Source of the DNA: Leifsonia sp. 466MF
Lineage (GTDB): Bacteria; Actinomycetota; Actinomycetes; Actinomycetales; Microbacteriaceae
DNA: 64,000 bases
Reading direction: 5' to 3'
Assembly: GCF_900100265.1 (NCBI RefSeq)
Contig: NZ_LT629696.1
Span: forward strand, 124,001 to 188,000
Below are positions 24,444 to 34,540 of this stretch, piece after piece. The notes below the pieces were generated by a model. That model saw only the letters and a program-made list of their open reading frames with translations, ran no database searches and had not been told where the DNA came from. The position numbers and the translations under genes were made by a program. Numbering within the stretch: the stretch's first letter is position 1; every line of letters begins with the position of its first letter.

Positions 24444-24483
24444 GTCCCGGCCACCCGTGCTGCCTACCCGGCCGGAAGGGACT
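24443..24483. terminator. Imperfect inverted repeat between convergent genes
   Basis: AGTCCCGGCC pairs with GGCC-GG-AAGGGACT across a loop of about 16 bases. It spans the junction of the EamA gene and the ROK gene; its right arm is inside the ROK coding end. Confidence 0.35.
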
Positions 24484-25381
24484 GGAATGCGAGTCGGCCG
24501 GCACCGATGAGAGCGGCGTCGGATCCCGATCGGGCCGCCTCGACGCGCACACCCGCGAAGGGCGGCCGCAACGACGCGCGGAGGCGCTCAGCGAGCGGAT
24601 CGATGAACAGGGCACCGAGCCCCGACACTCCTCCGCCGAGCAGCACGGTGCCGGGATCGACCGTCACGACCGCGGAGGCGAGCGACTCGCCCAGGTCCTC
24701 GGCCGCGACCCGGATCACCTGCGCCGCGATGACGTCGCCGTCCGCCGCCAGCCGTCCGATCGAACGCAGATCGCGCGCGCGGCCGGTGAACTCGGCGTAG
24801 GTGAGCTCGATGCCCGGACCGCTGGCGAAGGCCTCGATGTGATCGGCGCCGCCGCAGGAGCACACGCGGTGCCGGGCCGAGGGGATGTGGACGTGCCCCA
24901 CCGAGCCCGCCATCCCCGACGCTCCGAGCAGCACTCGGCCGTCGGCGACGACGGCGCCGCCGATGCCCGTTCCGACCGCGACGAACAGGAAGCGCTCCAG
25001 GCCGGCCATCGTCTGCTCGCCGATCGCCGCCGCGTGGACATCGTTCACGACCACCACGGGTGCGCCGAGCCGCGAGCGGAGGCCGCCGGCCACGTCAGCG
25101 CCGCTCCAGCCGGCCAGATGGTCGGTGGCATGGACGACGACACCGTGCTCGTCGAAGGCGCCCGCGCTGCCGACGCCGAATGCATCCGGGGTGATCCCCG
25201 CTCGTTCGGCGACGGCCGCTGCCAGAGCGGCGGCGGCATCCAGCACATCCTGCGCGCCCGTCTGCGCCGGCGTCGGTGTCTCAGCGCGGTGCGTCAGGCT
25301 CCCATCCGGCCGCACCACCGCGGCGGCCGTCTTCGTCCCGCCGATGTCGATGCCGACGACGGCGGGTTCACGTAGCGACAT
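24464..25381 (-). CDS. ROK-family sugar kinase (candidate N-acetylmannosamine kinase)
   Basis: The protein has 305 residues. The N-terminal phosphate loop is VVGIDIGGTKTAAAVV, the catalytic region is VVVNDVHAAAIGE, and FVAVGTGIGGAVV is the second phosphate motif. The ROK zinc site is altered: HxxxxxRHRVCSCGGADHIE has His where the third Cys of CxCGxxGCxE is expected. It directly follows nanE (TGATG overlap), which argues for ManNAc as substrate; glucokinase activity cannot be excluded. It is the last gene of the sugar ABC operon. Confidence 0.82.
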   Translation of the reverse strand: MSLREPAVVGIDIGGTKTAAAVVRPDGSLTHRAETPTPAQTGAQDVLDAAAALAAAVAERAGITPDAFGVGSAGAFDEHGVVVHATDHLAGWSGADVAGGLRSRLGAPVVVVNDVHAAAIGEQTMAGLERFLFVAVGTGIGGAVVADGRVLLGASGMAGSVGHVHIPSARHRVCSCGGADHIEAFASGPGIELTYAEFTGRARDLRSIGRLAADGDVIAAQVIRVAAEDLGESLASAVVTVDPGTVLLGGGVSGLGALFIDPLAERLRASLRPPFAGVRVEAARSGSDAALIGAGRLAFQSLPAG

Positions 25382-26106
25382 CACGTGCTGCGCGGCGTCG
25401 CGGCCGCGAATCGCCGGGTGATGGCGATGGGGTCGGTGATGGCCCCGCCGACGACGACGGCGAACGCGCCCGCGTCGAAGGCCCCCGCGACCTGCTCCGG
25501 GGTCTGGAAGCGTCCTTCCGCCAGCACGCGAACTCCGCGTGAGGCGAGCTCGGCCACGAGCTCGATGTCCGGACCAGGGTCCATCCGCGAGTACGGAGTG
25601 TAACCGGAGAGGGTGGTCCCCACGAACGTCGCTCCCGCGTCCCAGGCCGCCAGACCCTCGTCGAGGGTCGACGCGTCGGCCATGATGGGCAGCGGCACCG
25701 CCAGGACGGCGGACCGTATCCGGGACGCGACATCCCCGGCGACCTCGGCGGTGGCGTCGACCGCGACGACATCCGCCCCCGCCGCAGCGAGCGCGAGGAC
25801 CTGCTCATCGGTGTGGGTGATGATGTTGCGCCGGCGGCCCATCCGCTTGTCGAGGCCGATGACCGGGACATCCGTCAAGGGTCGCACGGCCGACACGTCG
25901 TCCGGTCCGTTGACGCGCAGGGCGACCGCACCGCCCTGCAGCGCGCTCGCCGCGAGTCTCGCGATGGTCGCCGTGTCGCGCATCGGCGAGCCCTGCTGGG
26001 CCTGACACGAGACGACGAGGCCTCCTTCGATCGCCGCGAGCGCGCCGAGCCGACCGTTCGCGGTGCCGGCGAGCGATCCCTCACTGCTACTTGAGTGCGC
26101 CTGCAC
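25381..26106 (-). CDS. nanE: N-acetylmannosamine-6-phosphate 2-epimerase
   Basis: Converts ManNAc-6-P to GlcNAc-6-P in sialic acid/ManNAc catabolism. The 241-residue TIM barrel matches NanE: GGLVVSCQAQQGSPM, GGAVALRVNG, VPVIGLDKR, GADVVAVDAT, PIMADASTLDEGLAAWDAGATFVGTTLSGYT (catalytic Lys/Glu region) and VLAEGRFQTPEQVAGAFDAGAFAVVVGGAITDP. About 27 residues precede the usual start. GTG 26106 overlaps the upstream permease gene by 20 bases; no ATG is available. It is followed by the ROK kinase gene. Confidence 0.92.
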   Translation of the reverse strand: MQAHSSSSEGSLAGTANGRLGALAAIEGGLVVSCQAQQGSPMRDTATIARLAASALQGGAVALRVNGPDDVSAVRPLTDVPVIGLDKRMGRRRNIITHTDEQVLALAAAGADVVAVDATAEVAGDVASRIRSAVLAVPLPIMADASTLDEGLAAWDAGATFVGTTLSGYTPYSRMDPGPDIELVAELASRGVRVLAEGRFQTPEQVAGAFDAGAFAVVVGGAITDPIAITRRFAAATPRST

Positions 26107-26989
26107 TGATACCCCCTACGAAGTAACGCTGGAAGACGACGAAGAGCGCCAGCGCCGGAATGGTGAACAAGACGGATGCCGCCATCAGCGGACCCCATTC
26201 GACGTTGTGCTCGCCGAAGAAGGAGTACAGGCCGATCGACAGCGTGTACTTGGAGGCATCGTTGAGGTAGATCAACGGATTCAGGAAGTCGGTCCACGCC
26301 CAGACGAACTGGAAGATCACCGCCGTGATCAGGGCGGGCCGCGCCTGCGGGAGCACGATCGACCAGTAGATGCGGAACTCGGAGGCGCCGTCGATCCGAG
26401 CGGCCTGGAGCAGCTCATCGGGCACCGACATCAGGAACTGGCGCAGCATGAAGATCAGGAACGGGGTTCCGAAGAACGCCGGGGCGACGAGCGGGATGAT
26501 CGTGTTCGTCGCTTGCAGCCCGTTCCACATCAGGAAGAGCGGGATCATCGTCACCTGCGGCGGCAGCATCATCGTCGCCATCACGATCACGAGGAGGGGG
26601 CGCTGCCCGCGCCACCCGATCTTCGAGAGGGAGTACGCGACGAGCGGCGACGCGATCAGCATCCCGAGCACCGAGAGGGCTGCGATGACGACCGTGTTCC
26701 ACAGGTACTGCCAGAACGGGATCTCCTCGAACACCGCCACGAAGTTGTCGAGCGTCCACTCCTTCGGCCAGAGCGCCGGCGGCGAGCTGAAGATGTCCGC
26801 CGGGAGCTTGAACGCGGTGCTGAGCATCGCGAGGAAGGGGAAGACGAAGAGCAGCGTCAGCCCCCACACGAGCGCGTAACGGCCCGCGGTGCGCGCCGGG
26901 CGGCGCCGGCGTCGGCGTGGTTCGTCCTCGCCGTCCGTCCACGGCGCACGGGTCGGCGCCTGCGGCTTCTCAACTGCGTTCAGAACCAT
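26087..26989 (-). CDS. Sugar ABC transporter permease, MalG type
   Basis: The 300-residue protein has an Arg-rich cytosolic head (RRRRRRPARTAGR), six helices and the EAA loop DELLQAARIDGASEFRIYWSIVLPQARPAL, which docks with the shared ATPase. PFLAMLSTAFK after the first helix is typical of CUT1 permeases. No ATPase gene is in this operon, as usual for actinobacterial CUT1 systems that share MsiK. It overlaps the upstream permease gene by 20 bases and nanE by 20 bases. Confidence 0.92.
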   Translation of the reverse strand: MVLNAVEKPQAPTRAPWTDGEDEPRRRRRRPARTAGRYALVWGLTLLFVFPFLAMLSTAFKLPADIFSSPPALWPKEWTLDNFVAVFEEIPFWQYLWNTVVIAALSVLGMLIASPLVAYSLSKIGWRGQRPLLVIVMATMMLPPQVTMIPLFLMWNGLQATNTIIPLVAPAFFGTPFLIFMLRQFLMSVPDELLQAARIDGASEFRIYWSIVLPQARPALITAVIFQFVWAWTDFLNPLIYLNDASKYTLSIGLYSFFGEHNVEWGPLMAASVLFTIPALALFVVFQRYFVGGISAGALK

Positions 26990-27893
26990 AGTGAACCCAT
27001 TTCTTGGACGACCAGAGCAGCAGCAGCGTGATCACCAGGGTGATCAGGAAGAGCACCCAGGCCATCGCCGAGGCGTAGCCCATCTTCAGGAAGACGAACG
27101 CGTTCTGGTACAGGTACATCGCGTAGCTGATCATCGATTGCCCCGGCCCTCCGCTCGCCTCATTGAGCCGTGTCTGGGTGAGCAGGTAGGGCTGGGTGAA
27201 GATCTGGAGGTAGGCGATCACCGTCACGATCACCTGGAACAGGGTCACGGGCGAGATCGTCGGCCAGGTGATGAAGCGGAAGCGGCCCCACCAGCCGGCG
27301 CCGTCGAGCTCGGCCGCCTCGTAGAGCTCCGTCGGGACGTCTTTGATCGCGGCGAGATAGATGATCATGGTGCCGCCGATGGTCCAGAGGCACATCAGCA
27401 GGATGGCCGGCTTGCCCCACGCGGGCTGCTCGAGCCACTCCGGCTGCGGGAGGTGGAGGAGGCCGAGGAAGTAGTTCACGAACCCGTACTGGGTGTTCAG
27501 CAGCCACCGCCAGAGGTAGCCGCCGACGACGATCGGGACGATGGTCGGGAGGTACACCAGGGCCCGGTAGAGCGGCTGACCGCGGACCGGCAGATTAAGG
27601 AAGTGCGCTCCGAGGATCGAGATGGCGATCGTCAGAGGCACCCCGGTGACCGTGAGGAACAGCGTGTTCGCCAACGCCTTCCAGAATGTCGAGTCCTGGA
27701 GCATATGGGCGTAGTTGTCGAGCCCGACCCAGGACGGCGCCTGGAAGAGGTTGAAGTCGGTGAAGCTGTAGCCGGCCGATGCGAGCACCGGCCAGACGAT
27801 GAACACCGCCGCCCCGATGATGAACGGCGACGCGAACGCCAGACCCAGCAGGGTCTGGCGTCGCGCACCGCGCTTGGCAGTCATCAGGGACAT
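26970..27893 (-). CDS. Sugar ABC transporter permease, MalF type
   Basis: The 307-residue protein has six helices: the first is LAFASPFIIGAAVFIVWPVLASAGYSF, followed by FQAPSWVGLDNYAHMLQDSTFWKALANTLFLT, the standard CUT1 opening. The EAA loop is LYEAAELDGAGWWGRFRFITWPTISPV. ATG 27893 overlaps the stop of the binding-protein gene by one base (TGATG); a second in-frame ATG lies three codons later. Confidence 0.92.
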   Translation of the reverse strand: MSLMTAKRGARRQTLLGLAFASPFIIGAAVFIVWPVLASAGYSFTDFNLFQAPSWVGLDNYAHMLQDSTFWKALANTLFLTVTGVPLTIAISILGAHFLNLPVRGQPLYRALVYLPTIVPIVVGGYLWRWLLNTQYGFVNYFLGLLHLPQPEWLEQPAWGKPAILLMCLWTIGGTMIIYLAAIKDVPTELYEAAELDGAGWWGRFRFITWPTISPVTLFQVIVTVIAYLQIFTQPYLLTQTRLNEASGGPGQSMISYAMYLYQNAFVFLKMGYASAMAWVLFLITLVITLLLLWSSKKWVHYGSERS

Positions 27894-29179
27894 CAGTACG
27901 AGCGCGCCTTGTCCGCGACCGAGGAGAGCGCCTTCTCGGGCGAGGCAACCCCGCGCACGACGTCGTCGAAGGCGGTGGCGAGGTCGGTCGAGTACTGCGC
28001 GCTGTAGGGCTGGGACGCCAGCGACTTCGCGTTCTTGCTCGTCAGAGCCTTCAGCCAGGAGTCGAAGTGCGGAATGTCGCCGTACGCGGAAGCCGTCAGC
28101 AGGGATGTCTTGGACGGCAGGTTGCCCAGAGCCAGCGTGAAGTCCGTCATCGGCTTGTCCCCGACGATGTAGGCGAGGAACTTCGCCGCTTCGGCCTTGT
28201 GCTTCGAGTTGCTGGGGATGAACAGCGTGCTCGTCGTCACCTGGGTCGTGCCGGCGAGCTCCGGGCTCGCCGCGGGGATGTCGACGACGCCCCAGTTGAG
28301 GTTCGGCGCCACCTTCGGGATGTTCACGGCCTGCCACTCGCCGTCGATCACCATGGCCTCCTTCCCGGTGTAGAAGGGGTCCTGCGCGGACATGTACTGC
28401 CCGAGTCCCGAGGTGAACGTCGCGATCTTGTCCGCGCCGTACGTGTCGGTGAGGGTCTTGGCGTACCAGTCGAGCGCCTCGACGTTCTTGGGGTCGTCCG
28501 GCGTCGGAGTCTTCCCGTTCTCGCCGTCCCAGGTGCCGCCGAACGCGTAGCCGAGGGTGGTGAAGAGCGTCGACGCAGAGGGATTGCCGAGGCCGATCTG
28601 CGTGATCGCGCCGTTCGCGTCGGTGACGGTGAGCTTCTTGACCGCGTCCGCCAGCTCGTCCATGGTCGTCGGCGGCTGCACGCCCGCCTTGTCGAGCAGG
28701 TCCTTGTTGTACATGAGCTGCTGGGTGTGCACGGCGATGGGCAGGGCGTACGTCTTGCCCTCGTACTTCATCTGGTCCAGCGCGGCGGGGGCGAACCCGT
28801 CGAGGTCGACCTTCTCGGTCTTGAGGTAGTCGTCGAGCGGCGCCAGGATCCCCTTCGACGCCCACGAGCCGACAGTGTTCCCGAAGTTGTCGGAGATGTC
28901 GAAGCTGCCGTTGCTGGACGACATCGAGGTGAGCTGCTTCTGCGCGTCCGGGCTGGAGACGCCGACCACCTTGATCGCGGACTGGCTCTTGTTGAAGTCG
29001 GCGATGACCTTCTCGAGCGCCTTCGCCTCTTCGCCTCCCCAGAGGTAGGAGAAGGTGATGGTGGTGGGGCCGGAGGACGCGGCCCCGGAGCATCCGCTCA
29101 AGGCGACGGCGACGGCGGCGACGCCGGTGAGCGCGACGGTGCGCAGCAGGGGCCGCCGTCTGGTGATCCTGGTTTCCAT
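27893..29179 (-). CDS. Extracellular sugar-binding lipoprotein (family 1)
   Basis: The 428-residue precursor has basic METRITRRRPLL, a hydrophobic core and lipobox VALSGCSG (Cys 30). The mature part has the family 1 fold: TITFSYLWGGEEAKALEKVIADFNKSQ, then PIAVHTQQLMYNKDLLDKAGVQPPTT (hinge and tryptophan-poor pocket) and the C-terminal KHKAEAAKFLAYIVGDKPM. It delivers a sugar to the two permeases encoded next. First gene of the operon; AAGGAA precedes the ATG. Operator site A overlaps the likely -35. Confidence 0.92.
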   Translation of the reverse strand: METRITRRRPLLRTVALTGVAAVAVALSGCSGAASSGPTTITFSYLWGGEEAKALEKVIADFNKSQSAIKVVGVSSPDAQKQLTSMSSSNGSFDISDNFGNTVGSWASKGILAPLDDYLKTEKVDLDGFAPAALDQMKYEGKTYALPIAVHTQQLMYNKDLLDKAGVQPPTTMDELADAVKKLTVTDANGAITQIGLGNPSASTLFTTLGYAFGGTWDGENGKTPTPDDPKNVEALDWYAKTLTDTYGADKIATFTSGLGQYMSAQDPFYTGKEAMVIDGEWQAVNIPKVAPNLNWGVVDIPAASPELAGTTQVTTSTLFIPSNSKHKAEAAKFLAYIVGDKPMTDFTLALGNLPSKTSLLTASAYGDIPHFDSWLKALTSKNAKSLASQPYSAQYSTDLATAFDDVVRGVASPEKALSSVADKARSY

Positions 29180-29223
29180 GGGCTTCCTTACGGGTGTCAG
29201 GGTTCGGAATGGGAGTGCTTGTC

Positions 29224-29241
29224 AATTGGTGTACTCCATTC
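29224..29241. promoter_or_regulatory. Operator site A of the GntR regulon
   Basis: AATTGG-TGTACT-CCATTC, a near-palindrome. It overlaps by two bases a TTGACA -35 (minus strand, 29220-29225) of the sugar ABC operon. Confidence 0.6.
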
Positions 29242-29309
29242 TTTCGAGTGGTGTCAACAGATTCGAGGAAATTGCGGAATAGTTGCGGTGGATGGTCCCA
29301 GTCTCCCTA

Positions 29310-29327
29310 AAATGGTTCTCACCAATC
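29310..29327. promoter_or_regulatory. Operator site B of the GntR regulon
   Basis: AAATGG-TTCTCA-CCAATC, near-palindrome, 33 bases upstream of the GntR start codon; suggests autoregulation. Confidence 0.55.
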
Positions 29328-29360
29328 CGACACCGGGTCGGATGCATCGCGGAGGAGATC

Positions 29361-30074
29361 ATGGCGGAGCAGCACACGAAGTCCGAGCGACTGCGTCAGC
29401 ACCTTGTCGACGTCATCGACCAGGGGCTCGAACCGCACTCCAAGCTGCCGACCGAGCGGGATCTCGCCTCGGAGTTCGACGTCAGCCGGCTGACCGTACG
29501 ACGGGCGCTCGACCGTCTCGAGCACGAGGGTCTCGTCTACCGGGTGCAAGGCGCCGGCACGTTCGTCGCCGCCCCGCGGATCACCAAGTCCGTCGAGCTG
29601 ACCTCGTTCAGTGAGGACATGCGCGCCCGCGGTCTCGTCCCCGGCTCCTCGGTGCTGGTCACCGAGACCATCTCCGCCGGGGCCCGGCTCGGCGCCAAGC
29701 TGAGGGTCAGCCCGTCGGACGATGTGTTTCACATCCGGCGGGCGCGCACCGCGGACGGTGAGCCGATGGCCCTCGAGGACACCTACCTCAATCCGCGGCT
29801 GTTTCCCGGCCTGATCGACAACATCGGGAGCGAATCGCTCTACCAGATCCTCGAGACCGAGTACGGGATGAAGATCGAATGGGCCGAGCAGAGCATCCAT
29901 GCCAGTGTGCTCGAGCCGGAGGAGGCGCAACTGCTGAGCGCTCCGCCCTTCTCCCCGGCTTTCTACGTGACCCGCATCAGTTTCGACGCCCAGGACCGAC
30001 CGGTCGAATATGCCGAGTCGACGTATCGGGGCGACCGGTATCACTACGAGCTCCAGATCCACCGCACGCGCTGA
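29361..30074 (+). CDS. GntR-family regulator, HutC/UTRA type
   Basis: The 237-residue protein has a winged helix at about 8-72 ([56 protein letters not shown]) and a UTRA ligand domain from about 85 to the end, with [26 protein letters not shown] and the terminal [25 protein letters not shown] domains bind small effectors, often phosphosugars (GlcNAc-6-P in DasR). ATG 29361 has GGAGGAG before it. It is divergent from the sugar ABC operon and followed by the DUF4127 gene, 13 bases later. Confidence 0.92.
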
Positions 30075-30087
30075 ACCGAGGAGAGCC

Positions 30088-31590
30088 ATGCGCATCGCAC
30101 TCGTCCCGTTGGACGAACGGCCCGTGAACGTCCAGCTGCCCAGCCAGGTTGCGGCGATCGCCGGAGCCGAGCTGATCCTGCCGCCCGCGGAGGCGATGCC
30201 CGACTTCCGCAGGCCGGCCGATATCGCGGCCCTGCACGGGTGGCTGCGTGAGCTCGTGCTGTCGGACGGGGTCGACCGCCTCGTGGTGTGCGTCGACACG
30301 CTCGTGCACGGCGGCATCATCCCCGCGCGCATCACGTCCGACACCACGACCACGGCGTTGGCGCGCCTCGACCTGCTCCGGGAACTCAAAGCCGTCGCCC
30401 CGACATTGCGCATCACGGCAGCCTCCCTGATCATGCGGGCGAGCGACTCCTACTCGCCGGTTGAGGAGCCCGAGTACTGGGCAGACTGGGGCCGCGAGCT
30501 GCACGCGCTGGGCGGAGACCTCCATCGAGCGTTCGAAGTGGACGTCGCGCGCGGCGAAGGCGCCGTCGAGCCGCTCGCGACGACTGTCCCCGACGACGTC
30601 CGCAGCGATTTCGAGCGACGCCGCCTCCGAAACCACACGATCAATCTGGCGGCGCTCGCACTCCACGAGGAGGGGACGGTCGACACGCTGACCCTGACGG
30701 CGGACGACACCGCCCCGCATTCGGCCGGCTCGGCCGAACAGGTGTGGCTCCGGCACTGGTCGCGCGCGTTGCCCGGCGGCGGGGATGTGCTGATGTATCC
30801 GGGTGCCGACGAGGTCGGAGCGGTTCTGGTTGCTCGTGCCCTCGCATCCGGTGTGGGCGTCCCGTCCTGGCGGATCGTCTGCGGTGAGCCGGACGGCCTC
30901 GACCGGGTTCCGAACTTCGAGAACGCGCCGCTGCGCGAGAGCCTGGCCCGGCAGATCGTCGCCGCAGGAGGACGCGTCGCCGCGCCGGAGGAATCCGCCG
31001 ACCTGGTCGTGGTGGCGCATGCGCCGGATCCCTCCCGGGGGGACTTCTTCGGAACACGACCGGCCTCCGATCCGGCTGCCACCGAGGCCACGGTGATCGC
31101 CGTGCGAAAGGCTCTGGCGGGCGGCTCTATCGTCGCGCTCGCCGATGTGCGGTTCAGCAACGGAGGCGATCCCGACCTGGTCGATCGGCTGGCGGCGGAA
31201 GGCCTGCTGCTCCAGCTCGCGTCCTACGGCGGATGGAACACCGCGGGCAACTCGATCGGAGGAGCCGTCGCACAGGCGACCGCGCTGTGGGCCGGACGCG
31301 CGAACGGCAACGCGGACGAGACCGCCCTGAGGGAGGCGCTGCTCACCCGGGTCCTGGACGATCGGGCCTACCAGAGCGGGACGCGACTCGCGATGCATGC
31401 GGCCGAGTTCGGGGGCAGTATCGGCCCGGTCGACGCCGATCGGCAGCGGGCCGTTCTGGCCAGGATCACCCGCGAGCTGGGTGAGTACTTGAGCGGCCTC
31501 CTCCCTGAGGGTGAGGCGTGGCGGATCGACGGGGTGACCCTGCCGTGGGCGAGGAGCTTCGAGATCGAAATCGCCCTTCGACGCGCGTAA
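30088..31590 (+). CDS. DUF4127 family protein
   Basis: The 500-residue cytosolic protein starts MRIALVPLDERPVNVQLPSQVAAIAGAEL, the hallmark of DUF4127, a family of unknown function seen in Firmicutes and Actinobacteria near carbohydrate genes. Later conserved pieces are RLVVCVDTLVHGGIIPAR, LTLTADDTAPHSAGSAEQVW, MYPGADEVGAVLVARAL, VALADVRFSNGGDPDLV and YGGWNTAGNSIGGAVAQA. The many conserved Asp/His/Asn residues suggest an enzyme. AGGAGAG precedes ATG 30088. It sits within the GntR regulon, so a role in breaking down the imported sugar is likely. Confidence 0.85.
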   Translation: MRIALVPLDERPVNVQLPSQVAAIAGAELILPPAEAMPDFRRPADIAALHGWLRELVLSDGVDRLVVCVDTLVHGGIIPARITSDTTTTALARLDLLRELKAVAPTLRITAASLIMRASDSYSPVEEPEYWADWGRELHALGGDLHRAFEVDVARGEGAVEPLATTVPDDVRSDFERRRLRNHTINLAALALHEEGTVDTLTLTADDTAPHSAGSAEQVWLRHWSRALPGGGDVLMYPGADEVGAVLVARALASGVGVPSWRIVCGEPDGLDRVPNFENAPLRESLARQIVAAGGRVAAPEESADLVVVAHAPDPSRGDFFGTRPASDPAATEATVIAVRKALAGGSIVALADVRFSNGGDPDLVDRLAAEGLLLQLASYGGWNTAGNSIGGAVAQATALWAGRANGNADETALREALLTRVLDDRAYQSGTRLAMHAAEFGGSIGPVDADRQRAVLARITRELGEYLSGLLPEGEAWRIDGVTLPWARSFEIEIALRRA

Positions 31591-31604
31591 TGGTGTCATC
31601 CATT
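31589..31604. promoter_or_regulatory. Operator site C of the GntR regulon
   Basis: AATGG-TGTCAT-CCATT, a perfect palindrome in its arms that begins at the stop codon of the DUF4127 gene. Confidence 0.6.
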
Positions 31605-31636
31605 GGGTGGCGACCATTGATAATTAAACAATTCTG

Positions 31637-31666
31637 TTGCCGAATCCGTCTTAAATGGGCTATACC
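31637..31666 (+). promoter_or_regulatory. Promoter of the DUF4434 protein gene
   Basis: TTGCCG at 31637-31642, an 18-base spacer, TATACC at 31661-31666. The -10 is embedded in operator site D. The region is AT-rich compared with its surroundings. Confidence 0.5.
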
Positions 31667-31670
31667 ATTT
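31653..31670. promoter_or_regulatory. Operator site D of the GntR regulon
   Basis: AAATGG-GCTATA-CCATTT, perfect 6-bp arms. It covers the -10 of the DUF4434 gene, the classic position for repression. Confidence 0.65.
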
Positions 31671-31717
31671 ACGAGTCTCGGCACCGTCGTCGGGACCGCT
31701 CACTCGAAGGAGTAGGT

Positions 31718-33481
31718 ATGAGTCACCGCACCGGGTCTCGTCTCTCGGCCCTGATCGCCGGGGCGGCCATCGCCGCGGCCCTGGTCGTTCCAGCGACGCC
31801 GGCCGCCGCCACGCCGACCTGCACCACCACCCCGCGCATCGACGGCAGCTTCATCCAGCCGGCGCTCGTCGACGGCTGGAACGGCACCCAGCTCTCCTCC
31901 GAGCTCAGCACCCTGACCAATGCGTGCATCACCAGCCAGGTGATCCAGTGGACGGCCGACACCAAAGGGTCGACCACCGTCTACCCGAGTGGGCTCAGCG
32001 GGTACACGCAGAGCACGTCGACGGATGTGGTCTCCCGTGTTCTGACTGCGGCGGACAGCGCCGGGGTCGCCGAGTACCTGGGGTTGCAGACGAACGATGA
32101 CTGGTGGAACACCTATGCCAACGACGTCACGTGGCTGAACGGTCAGGCGACCGCAGCGAACGCCCTGGCCGACGATCTCTACGCCCGGTACGGGACGCAC
32201 ACGTCCTTCGCCGGCTGGTACCTTCCGTTCGAGGTCGACAACTGGAACTTCACCTCCACCTCGTCCTGGAGCGCCATGGCGACGTTCTACACGACGATCG
32301 CGAACCACCTGCATGCGCTCACCCCGGGCAAGCCCGTGATCATCAGCCCGTTCTACAACACGTCCGGGGGCCAGACGAGCACCCAGTGGACGAGCATGTG
32401 GTCGAGCATCCTCGCCTCCGCTCCGATCGATGTGATCGCCCTGCAGGACGGGGTCGGCGCCGGTCACGCGACGACCGCGCAGCTGGCCACCTGGTTCTCC
32501 GCGACCAAGAGCGCGATCACCAGCTCCCGGCCGGCCACGCAGCTCTGGGCCGACAGCGAGACATTCAACCCGGACTTCACGCCGATGTCGATCTCCCAGT
32601 TGATCGCCGACCTCAACGCCGTCGCCCCGTACGTGACCAAGACCCTGTCGTTCTCGTACGACCACTACGACAGTCCGCTGACGGTCCCCTCCGTGTATGA
32701 CACCACCTACCGGAACTACCTGTCTTCCGGTGCGGTGGAGTCGTCGGCCCCGACCACGCCGACAGGTCTTGCAGCGACGTCGGGCGGCATCACTTCGGTG
32801 AACTTGACCTGGACGGCATCCACCGACAACATCGGCATCGCCGGATACCGCGTCTACCGCGGAGGGGCACTGGTCAAGGTGATCCAGGGCGCAGTGACCA
32901 GCTTCACGGATGCGGGCCTCAGCCCCTCGACCACCTACAGCTACAAGCTGGCCGCTTTCGATGCCGCCGGCAACGCCTCCGCCCAGAGCACCACGGCGAC
33001 GGCGACGACGTCCTCGGCGCCCGCAGCCAATCCGCTGATCTCCTCGGGCCGCCCGTACACGACGTCCGTGGGCGCAGACCCGGGCTACCCTGACGCGGGC
33101 GCGGCGGAACTGACGAACGGCGTCACGGGCACGACGAGCTACTCCGACGCTGCCTGGCAGGGCCGGAACACGGGGAGCGCCTACAGCTTCACGATCGACC
33201 TCGGCTCGACCAAGACCATCACCCAGGTGGGAACGTCGTGGCTGCAGACGAAGTCCGTGTACATCTTCCTTCCGTCCAGCATCCAGGTCTCGGTGTCGAC
33301 CACCGGATCGACCTTCACGCCTCTGGTGACCATGCCCGCGCCGAATGTGAGCGATGCCGACCAGCGGTACACCTACGCGGCATACGGGCTCTCCGGCTCG
33401 GGGCGTTACGTCCGATTCACCGTCACCCCCGCGAGCAGCGCCTGGTCGTTCGTGGACGAAGCGACCGTCCGGGGGCTGTGA
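31718..33481 (+). CDS. Secreted DUF4434 / fibronectin III / discoidin-domain protein, putative glycoside hydrolase
   Basis: The 587-residue precursor has a Sec signal peptide (about 1-32, LIAGAAIAAALVVPATPAAA). A TIM-barrel-like DUF4434 domain at about 35-340 contains the pattern GSFIQPALVDGW, FAGWYLPFEVDNWNF (candidate acidic active-site pair) and SFSYDHYDSPL. An FnIII domain follows at about 347-435 (APTTPTGLAATSGGITSVNLTW), then an F5/8 type C (CBM32-like) domain at about 445-587 (GTTSYSDAAWQG, FTIDLGSTKTITQVG). It is probably an extracellular glycan-binding enzyme that releases the sugar imported by the neighbouring ABC system. AAGGAG precedes the ATG. Confidence 0.82.
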   Translation: MSHRTGSRLSALIAGAAIAAALVVPATPAAATPTCTTTPRIDGSFIQPALVDGWNGTQLSSELSTLTNACITSQVIQWTADTKGSTTVYPSGLSGYTQSTSTDVVSRVLTAADSAGVAEYLGLQTNDDWWNTYANDVTWLNGQATAANALADDLYARYGTHTSFAGWYLPFEVDNWNFTSTSSWSAMATFYTTIANHLHALTPGKPVIISPFYNTSGGQTSTQWTSMWSSILASAPIDVIALQDGVGAGHATTAQLATWFSATKSAITSSRPATQLWADSETFNPDFTPMSISQLIADLNAVAPYVTKTLSFSYDHYDSPLTVPSVYDTTYRNYLSSGAVESSAPTTPTGLAATSGGITSVNLTWTASTDNIGIAGYRVYRGGALVKVIQGAVTSFTDAGLSPSTTYSYKLAAFDAAGNASAQSTTATATTSSAPAANPLISSGRPYTTSVGADPGYPDAGAAELTNGVTGTTSYSDAAWQGRNTGSAYSFTIDLGSTKTITQVGTSWLQTKSVYIFLPSSIQVSVSTTGSTFTPLVTMPAPNVSDADQRYTYAAYGLSGSGRYVRFTVTPASSAWSFVDEATVRGL

Positions 33482-33493
33482 GGGCGCGGCGCG

Positions 33494-34540
33494 TTAGCTG
33501 TGGGCGCGGAGGAAGGCGATCGTTGCATCCAGCGCCGTGTGCGCCTCCGCGAACTTCAGGTGGAACTGGTACTCGTGCGGCAGCGCGGGCTCGTGGTCGG
33601 CGGGCCAGAACAGCTCGGTCACGTCCACACCCTTCGCGCGGAGGGCGGCGGCCATCGGGACGGACTGCGTCCAGGTGAGTCCGTCGCCGTTCCCGCCGGA
33701 GATGTAGGTCGGCGGGAAGGCGGCGGTGACGTGCTGGATGGTCGACATGGTCGATCCGACGTAGGTCTGCGACCAGTCCTTCGTTCCGCTGTACGACCAC
33801 AGGGCGGTCTTGAAGCCCCAGCCGTCGATCCCGGTGAGGCTGGCGAGCGCGTCGAGGTCGTAGACGCCGCAGTTGAGGACGACGGCCGATAGCTGGTCCG
33901 GCTGGAGTGCGGGTGCGATCCCCATCAGGTTCGCGTACTCGGGGCTGGTGGTCAGGACGGCGAGCTGGCTGGCGAGCTGTGACCCGGCGGAGTCGCCGGC
34001 GAGGATGATGCGGCTGGGGTCGATGCCGAGCGTCTCGGCGTGCGCGTCCAGGTACGCGAGCGCGTCGTTGAGCTGGCGCACGGCGGTCGGGTAGGTCGCC
34101 TCGGGTCCGACCGTGTAGTTGAGGCCGACGGTCGTGAACCCCTGGTCGGCCAGGATGCGTAGGTAGGGGTCGACGTCGGAGCTGACGCCCGAGATCCAGG
34201 CGCCGCCGTGGATCCACACGACGGTCGGAAGCGGGTCCGTCGCGCTGTCAGGGCGGAAGATGTCGAACGTCGTGTCGGGCGATCCCGGCGCGTAGCGGAG
34301 CCCGGTCTGTGCCGTCACACCGGTGGTCGGCACGAACGGCTTCATCTCGGCGACCGTCTCGGCGGCGCCCTTCTCGAAGACGCTGCGGATCACCAGGGCG
34401 GACGGCCATGGGGACGACGACGCGAGGCTGGCGAGGATGAGCAGGCACAGCAGCACGATGGCGGTGACGGACACGACGCGGCGGGCGCGCCGCGAGAGCA
34501 GTGGAGGCGTCGGCAGCTCGTCGGCGCGGGCACGGGTCAT
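33494..34540 (-). CDS. Membrane-anchored alpha/beta hydrolase (esterase, HSL-like)
   Basis: The 348-residue protein has an N-terminal transmembrane helix at about 22-42 (VVSVTAIVLLCLLILASLA) and no cleavage motif, so it is a signal anchor with the enzyme outside. The catalytic domain shows the oxyanion motif VVWIHGGAWISG, the nucleophile elbow LAGDSAGSQLA and a C-terminal His in PADHEPALPHEYQF. These are features of the hormone-sensitive-lipase/carboxylesterase group; the substrate is unknown. ATG 34540 lies six bases after TACGGT. It is convergent with the DUF4434 gene. Confidence 0.88.
   Translation of the reverse strand: MTRARADELPTPPLLSRRARRVVSVTAIVLLCLLILASLASSSPWPSALVIRSVFEKGAAETVAEMKPFVPTTGVTAQTGLRYAPGSPDTTFDIFRPDSATDPLPTVVWIHGGAWISGVSSDVDPYLRILADQGFTTVGLNYTVGPEATYPTAVRQLNDALAYLDAHAETLGIDPSRIILAGDSAGSQLASQLAVLTTSPEYANLMGIAPALQPDQLSAVVLNCGVYDLDALASLTGIDGWGFKTALWSYSGTKDWSQTYVGSTMSTIQHVTAAFPPTYISGGNGDGLTWTQSVPMAAALRAKGVDVTELFWPADHEPALPHEYQFHLKFAEAHTALDATIAFLRAHS

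Follow-up and report, generated by a model that had tools for sequence, protein, structure and literature searches.

A candidate regulon of Leifsonia sp. 466MF for N-acetylmannosamine-containing glycans, with DUF4127 and DUF4434 as possible glycoside-cleaving enzymes

How N-acetylmannosamine (ManNAc) might be obtained by a bacterium that lacks a recognizable sialic acid lyase is the question raised by a sugar locus of Leifsonia sp. 466MF, a soil-type actinobacterium whose 4.14 Mb genome is a single contig (C1; assembly GCF_900100265.1, NZ_LT629696.1). The window, the 64,000-nucleotide stretch analysed here (C1:124001-188000), holds this locus at 24464..33481 as two divergent transcripts. An earlier note, made from the sequence alone, had placed sugar uptake genes, the epimerase NanE and a ROK kinase under the same apparent control as proteins of the families DUF4127 and DUF4434, and had suggested a glycan pathway with DUF4434 acting outside the cell and DUF4127 inside. 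That reading is supported in part: the linkage and the outside/inside division stand and an odd lower pathway does not. On the comparisons described below, the chances seem about even that the locus is a catabolic regulon for a ManNAc-containing glycan or glycoside, independent of sialic acid.

All of the named genes were recovered at their places by profile searches. The leftward transcript (minus strand) encodes, in order, a sugar-binding lipoprotein (SBP; 27893..29179; PF01547, 3.4e-40; lipobox by eye), two CUT1-type ATP-binding cassette (ABC) permeases, the first MalF-like (26970..27896; PF00528, 3.5e-12; used in the permease tree) and the second MalG-like (26087..26989; PF00528, 7.8e-23), NanE, the ManNAc-6-phosphate (ManNAc-6-P) 2-epimerase (25381..26106; PF04131, 8.4e-47), and a ROK-family sugar kinase, likely acting on ManNAc or another N-acetylhexosamine (24464..25384; PF00480, 3.8e-53). 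NanE scored 226.8 bits against NCBIfam PRK01130 (cut-off 189) and is the single match in the whole genome, and the kinase, a member of the ROK family, reached 114.5 bits against the NanK equivalog cut-off of 450. The rightward transcript (plus strand) encodes a GntR/HutC-type regulator with a UTRA domain (29361..30074; PF07702, 1.5e-42; PF00392, 1e-19), the cytosolic DUF4127 protein, the proposed ManNAc-glycoside-cleaving enzyme (30088..31590; PF13552, 1.6e-124), and a secreted protein with a glycosidase-like DUF4434 domain followed by fn3 and F5/8C (discoidin) domains (31718..33481; PF14488, 6.9e-57; PF00041; PF00754). The starts of these three genes were chosen by eye from ribosome sites; the last had been described as present, and is, with the likely ATG at 31718 downstream of the open reading frame start at 31655. 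Among the records compared, the nearest relatives are three Leifsonia records with 81-82% identity in DUF4127, and the window permease is 97% identical to that of L. aquatica.

The absence of nanA was borne out genome-wide, the sole DHDPS-family match scoring 146 bits against the nanA model cut-off of 382. Two nagA-type deacetylases exceed their cut-off, less than 8 kb apart (C1:806225-807220 and C1:812730-813857), and the first adjoins nagB (L060:6294-7079; 388.6 versus 326 bits); this nagA also has ROK and NagZ-like genes beside it. The nagA matches are outside the window, as had been claimed, and nagB, which was not searched for across the window, was found elsewhere in the genome. Because both genes are present, N-acetylglucosamine-6-phosphate (GlcNAc-6-P) should be usable and its disposal ordinary, and their absence from the window is no sign of an odd lower pathway. 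The locus resembles a canonical nan cluster (NanA, NanK, NanE and transporter) in its ROK kinase, NanE, ABC importer and product GlcNAc-6-P. However, the canonical cluster has NanA, for which this genome has no match, and a specific NanK, whereas the ROK protein here falls below the NanK equivalog cut-off. Among the plasmid-borne NanE records, 5 of 392 were examined; in three (L187, L188 and L190) ROK and NanE are accompanied by a NanA-type gene, and two (L189 and L191) have no NanA-type gene by annotation.

The locus looks like one regulon from the placement of a 16-bp palindrome, AWTGGNNNNNNCCAWT (pattern AWTGGN6CCAWT), whose four genome matches, starting at 29225, 29311, 31589 and 31654, are all in this locus. 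Operators 1 (ATTGGTGTACTCCATT, 29225..29240) and 2 (AATGGTTCTCACCAAT, 29311..29326) lie in the gap that separates gntR from the divergent transporter genes, and operators 3 (AATGGTGTCATCCATT, 31589..31604) and 4 (AATGGGCTATACCATT, 31654..31669) precede the DUF4434 gene. The reversed pattern has zero matches genome-wide. Since about 3 chance matches are estimated from base composition (70% G+C), the placement of the operator, and not its count, was taken as evidence. The GntR protein would be expected to bind at these sites, and the idea of shared control gains from their being found in the genome solely here. Of 28 relatives with a GntR above 200 bits, 23 have a perfect copy of the 16-mer in the 300 bp that precede gntR, including Microbacterium, Nonomuraea and the alphaproteobacterium Devosia; it is absent near gntR in L079, L080, L082 (14-mers only), L086 and L174. 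A DUF4434 gene occurs in 7 of the 28 and is preceded by the 16-mer in four (L062, L082, L090 and L109), while in L076, L078 and L088 the 16-mer lies beyond the kinase, on the transporter-gene strand. This count excludes loci, such as L121, in which the first GntR did not exceed 200 bits; L172 and L173 (189-193 bits) were inspected separately. The DUF4127 and DUF4434 genes might instead be two passengers in an operon for plain ManNAc uptake. Free ManNAc calls for no more than an importer, a kinase and NanE, a set present in an Enterococcus phosphotransferase system (PTS) cluster where no such DUF is annotated. We give this reading very little weight, as the operators precede the DUF4434 gene and the linkage of the DUF genes is conserved over phyla.

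The linkage of DUF4127 was followed in the best 80 of 217 relatives, a set that leans to near kin and includes nine loci shorter than 12 kb, with neighbours counted by single-query phmmer searches at E<=1e-6, by which distant homologues may be missed. NanE is present in 45 of the 80 loci (by record title, 24 Actinomycetota, 12 Chloroflexota, 8 Pseudomonadota and 1 Bacillota) and within 5 kb in 42, so that the association on which the earlier note had staked its proposal held. AGE, an epimerase unrelated to NanE, is found in 4 of the loci without NanE, with weak matches (109-122 bits) in two of these; ROK is present in 37, DUF4434 in 8 and a NanA-type gene in 2, in neither case within 5 kb. In a taxonomy-based draw of 396 genomes from the order, which partly overlaps the 80 loci (G193 of the draw and L107 of the 80 are identical in the permease tree), DUF4127 occurs in 20 genomes, 19 over the cut-off, and NanE lies within 5 kb in at least 7 of the 20 among the matches listed. 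Chance proximity of the two is estimated at well under 1% per genome. Two Lachnospiraceae loci (L126 and L127) have two DUF4127 genes close together after sugar permeases, with no NanE or AGE found; L136-L139 place DUF4127 in Phascolarctobacterium or relatives, and in L136 it is flanked on one side by the gene of an ABC transporter ATPase and on the other by a gene of the phosphoglucose isomerase family. A Chloroflexota locus with NanE and DUF4127 also has a lipoprotein-like frame of three tandem DUF4434 domains (L121:15059-18193).

The partners of DUF4127 vary between bacteria. Among the plasmid records examined (6 of 9 for DUF4127, 4 of 4 for DUF4434), those of Priestia and Carnobacterium carry DUF4127 with NanE; those of Deinococcus, Alkaliphilus and Subdoligranulum carry DUF4127 with no NanE in the stretch, and the Subdoligranulum stretch has a DUF4434 gene nearby. 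Carnobacterium has a lactose/cellobiose-family PTS permease (361 versus 236 bits) as its importer, which points to a disaccharide substrate. In two Opitutaceae (L114 and L115) the gene immediately before DUF4127 encodes AGE, and in L114 an MFS_2 transporter follows DUF4127. DUF4434 in turn directly precedes AGE in Persicobacter (L182) and accompanies it in Bacteroides finegoldii (L181), with a major facilitator superfamily (MFS) porter gene between them. The AGE proteins of L181 and L114 exceed the N-acyl-D-glucosamine 2-epimerase equivalog cut-off and are far below that for cellobiose epimerase. Each of two unrelated DUF families therefore occurs with both of two unrelated GlcNAc/ManNAc epimerases.

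A DUF4434 protein can also stand where DUF4127 is otherwise found. In the draw, a DUF4434 match at E<=0.001 is found in 29 of the 396 genomes and exceeds the cut-off in 7, of which two partial matches (31-32 bits) were not counted as strong; the remaining 5 match at E<1e-30, and in at least 4 of these NanE, among the matches listed, lies within 6 kb. Three of the latter genomes lack DUF4127, two from one genus (G138 and G326) and one from another family (G055). Their loci (L172-L174) contain GntR, SBP, both permeases, DUF4434, ROK and NanE, with 35-52% identity between the L172 and L174 proteins shared with the window (GntR, SBP, permeases, ROK and NanE) and their counterparts, and the DUF4434 proteins have no signal peptide by eye and are cytosolic. 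In a midpoint-rooted tree of the best MalF-like permease per locus (at least 100 bits and more than 230 aa; 61 rows), L172-L174 form one branch (100/100), next to a group of 24 rows (100/98), every one with DUF4127, and the next branch outwards consists of the Firmicutes L126, L127 and L185 (joint group 91/85), also with DUF4127. Several long branches were flagged, within the 27-row group of the window only L088. The operator is retained in L172 and L173, both between the gntR and SBP genes and 165 bp ahead of a gene for a secreted DUF4855 protein, much as it precedes the secreted DUF4434 gene of the window.

The occurrence of a cytosolic DUF4434 together with DUF4127 in L076 speaks against a strict swap. 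Neither NanE nor AGE was seen in 31 of the 80 DUF4127 loci. The 31 loci would suit an accessory role for DUF4127, as a deacylase, isomerase or hydrolase whose target is the second sugar in an imported oligosaccharide, with ManNAc freed by the secreted DUF4434 protein or another enzyme, as would the occurrence of DUF4127 with LacI regulators, secreted carbohydrate-binding module proteins and flavin adenine dinucleotide (FAD) oxidoreductases. The two-by-two pairing of DUF4127 and DUF4434 with NanE and AGE, and the replacement of one by the other inside one orthologous operon, argue for a closer tie to ManNAc, and we consider the accessory role unlikely, though worth keeping in view.

What the two proteins might do was considered from their predicted structures. 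DUF4434 matches PF14488 with 193.6 bits (gathering cut-off 30) over model positions 1-279 of 283, and its model is a (beta/alpha)8 barrel. Enzymes of glycoside hydrolase (GH) clan GH-A carry their catalytic Glu at strands 4 and 7; in DUF4434, E135 and E244 (model residues; E172 and E281 when counted from the ATG at 31718; putative catalytic codons 32231-32233 and 32558-32560) occupy these strands and are invariant in 18 of 18 rows. As modelled, the domain is a clan GH-A-type barrel, so glycoside cleavage is likely. It shares the barrel and the Glu positions with GH164 and GH5 beta-mannosidases and mannanases of this clan, but at 9-12% identity only, and other GH-A families score equally. DUF4127 matches PF13552 with 416.6 bits (gathering cut-off 27) over positions 1-488 of 489, and its predicted structure (pLDDT 91.6) has no clear counterpart among solved structures; D9, R11, R81, R117, R179, D207, D241, W383 and N384 are invariant. 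The DUF4434 protein of the window has a signal peptide and DUF4127 has none, both by eye, which together with the glycosidase-type fold supports the proposed division between outside and inside.

The four invariant Arg could bind a carboxylate, and DUF4127 occupies SBP-ROK-NanE clusters where others carry a DHDPS-family gene, as might be expected of an unrelated NanA replacement, a lyase of sialic or another nonulosonic acid. Such a lyase is improbable given that the stand-in DUF4434 is of GH-A type and that a disaccharide-type PTS serves DUF4127 in Carnobacterium. The same resemblance of DUF4434 to a classical two-Glu glycosidase speaks against a redox route in which a GlcNAc glycoside, once oxidised by a PF12831 FAD-dependent oxidoreductase, would undergo elimination and rehydration by DUF4127, with ManNAc as a side epimer rescued by NanE. 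PF12831 adjoins DUF4127 and NanE in L053, L096 and L128 and adjoins DUF4434 and AGE in L182, and relatives occur in 6 of the 80 DUF4127 loci, but in none of the 23 of these that belong to the transporter clade of the window, and we regard this route as decidedly improbable.

PF12831 was also noted in the DUF4127 or DUF4434 loci L053, L058, L059, L106, L107, L128, L177 and L182. Loci with it often have alpha-mannosidase-type GH38 or GH92 and GHL10, a second, different type of neighbourhood.

The factor common to the loci is the conversion of ManNAc to GlcNAc, with importer, epimerase and cytosolic enzyme varying, and freeing ManNAc is the simplest role for the varying cytosolic enzyme. In the proposed regulon, the secreted DUF4434 protein, a putative retaining glycosidase of the GH-A type that its discoidin domain would anchor to polymers, would free oligosaccharides outside the cell, to be brought in by the SBP and CUT1 permeases. 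DUF4127, which by analogy with DUF4434 we infer to cleave glycosides, would release ManNAc from the imported glycoside once it is in the cytosol. Phosphorylation by the ROK kinase would give ManNAc-6-P, which NanE would convert to GlcNAc-6-P for consumption by the housekeeping nagA and nagB products. The GntR/UTRA protein may repress all genes from the four operator copies until relieved by a sugar or sugar phosphate. Beta-linked ManNAc occurs in the linkage unit of wall teichoic acid and would fit as a substrate.

If the proposal is true, it would give two widespread but functionally uncharacterized families a testable place in a single pathway, and the breakdown of ManNAc would cease to be a pointer to sialic acid alone. 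In the literature searched, DUF4127 and DUF4434 are not mentioned and the terms N-acetylmannosaminidase and mannosaminidase were not found. A concrete hypothesis would also follow for a gut Bacteroides locus. The solved DUF4434 structure, PDB 4h41, is BT_0435 of B. thetaiotaomicron, which by gene number is placed near a Bacteroides operon whose substrate is reported as unknown (PMC6989115); BT0442 is annotated as DUF4855 (PMC10434189). The related B. finegoldii locus L181, with SusCD, DUF5018 and DUF4855 and no DUF4127 in the stretch, shares DUF4434 with the window and DUF4855 with L172 and L173, but has AGE and an MFS porter in place of NanE, ROK and the ABC importer. More tentatively, and with the balance somewhat against it, DUF4127 could be the founding family of cytosolic N-acetylmannosaminidases without an assigned solved fold, and DUF4434 its interchangeable GH-A-type counterpart, in a widespread sialic-acid-independent ManNAc-glycan route whose enzyme (DUF4127 or DUF4434), epimerase (NanE or AGE) and importer (ABC, PTS or MFS) are swapped for unrelated proteins between bacteria; this would also explain the orphan BT_0435-BT_0443 locus.

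In the window, a BD-FAE/Abhydrolase_3 esterase gene with no operator upstream (33494-34540) is convergent with the DUF4434 gene. The product of wecB forms UDP-ManNAc. DUF4434 lies beside wecB in a polysaccharide-synthesis-like cluster on a Comamonadaceae plasmid (L186), and a partial-match DUF4127 lies near a wecB cluster, on the opposite strand, in Deinococcus ficus (L183); these proteins are perhaps hydrolases linked with making, rather than eating, ManNAc polymers.

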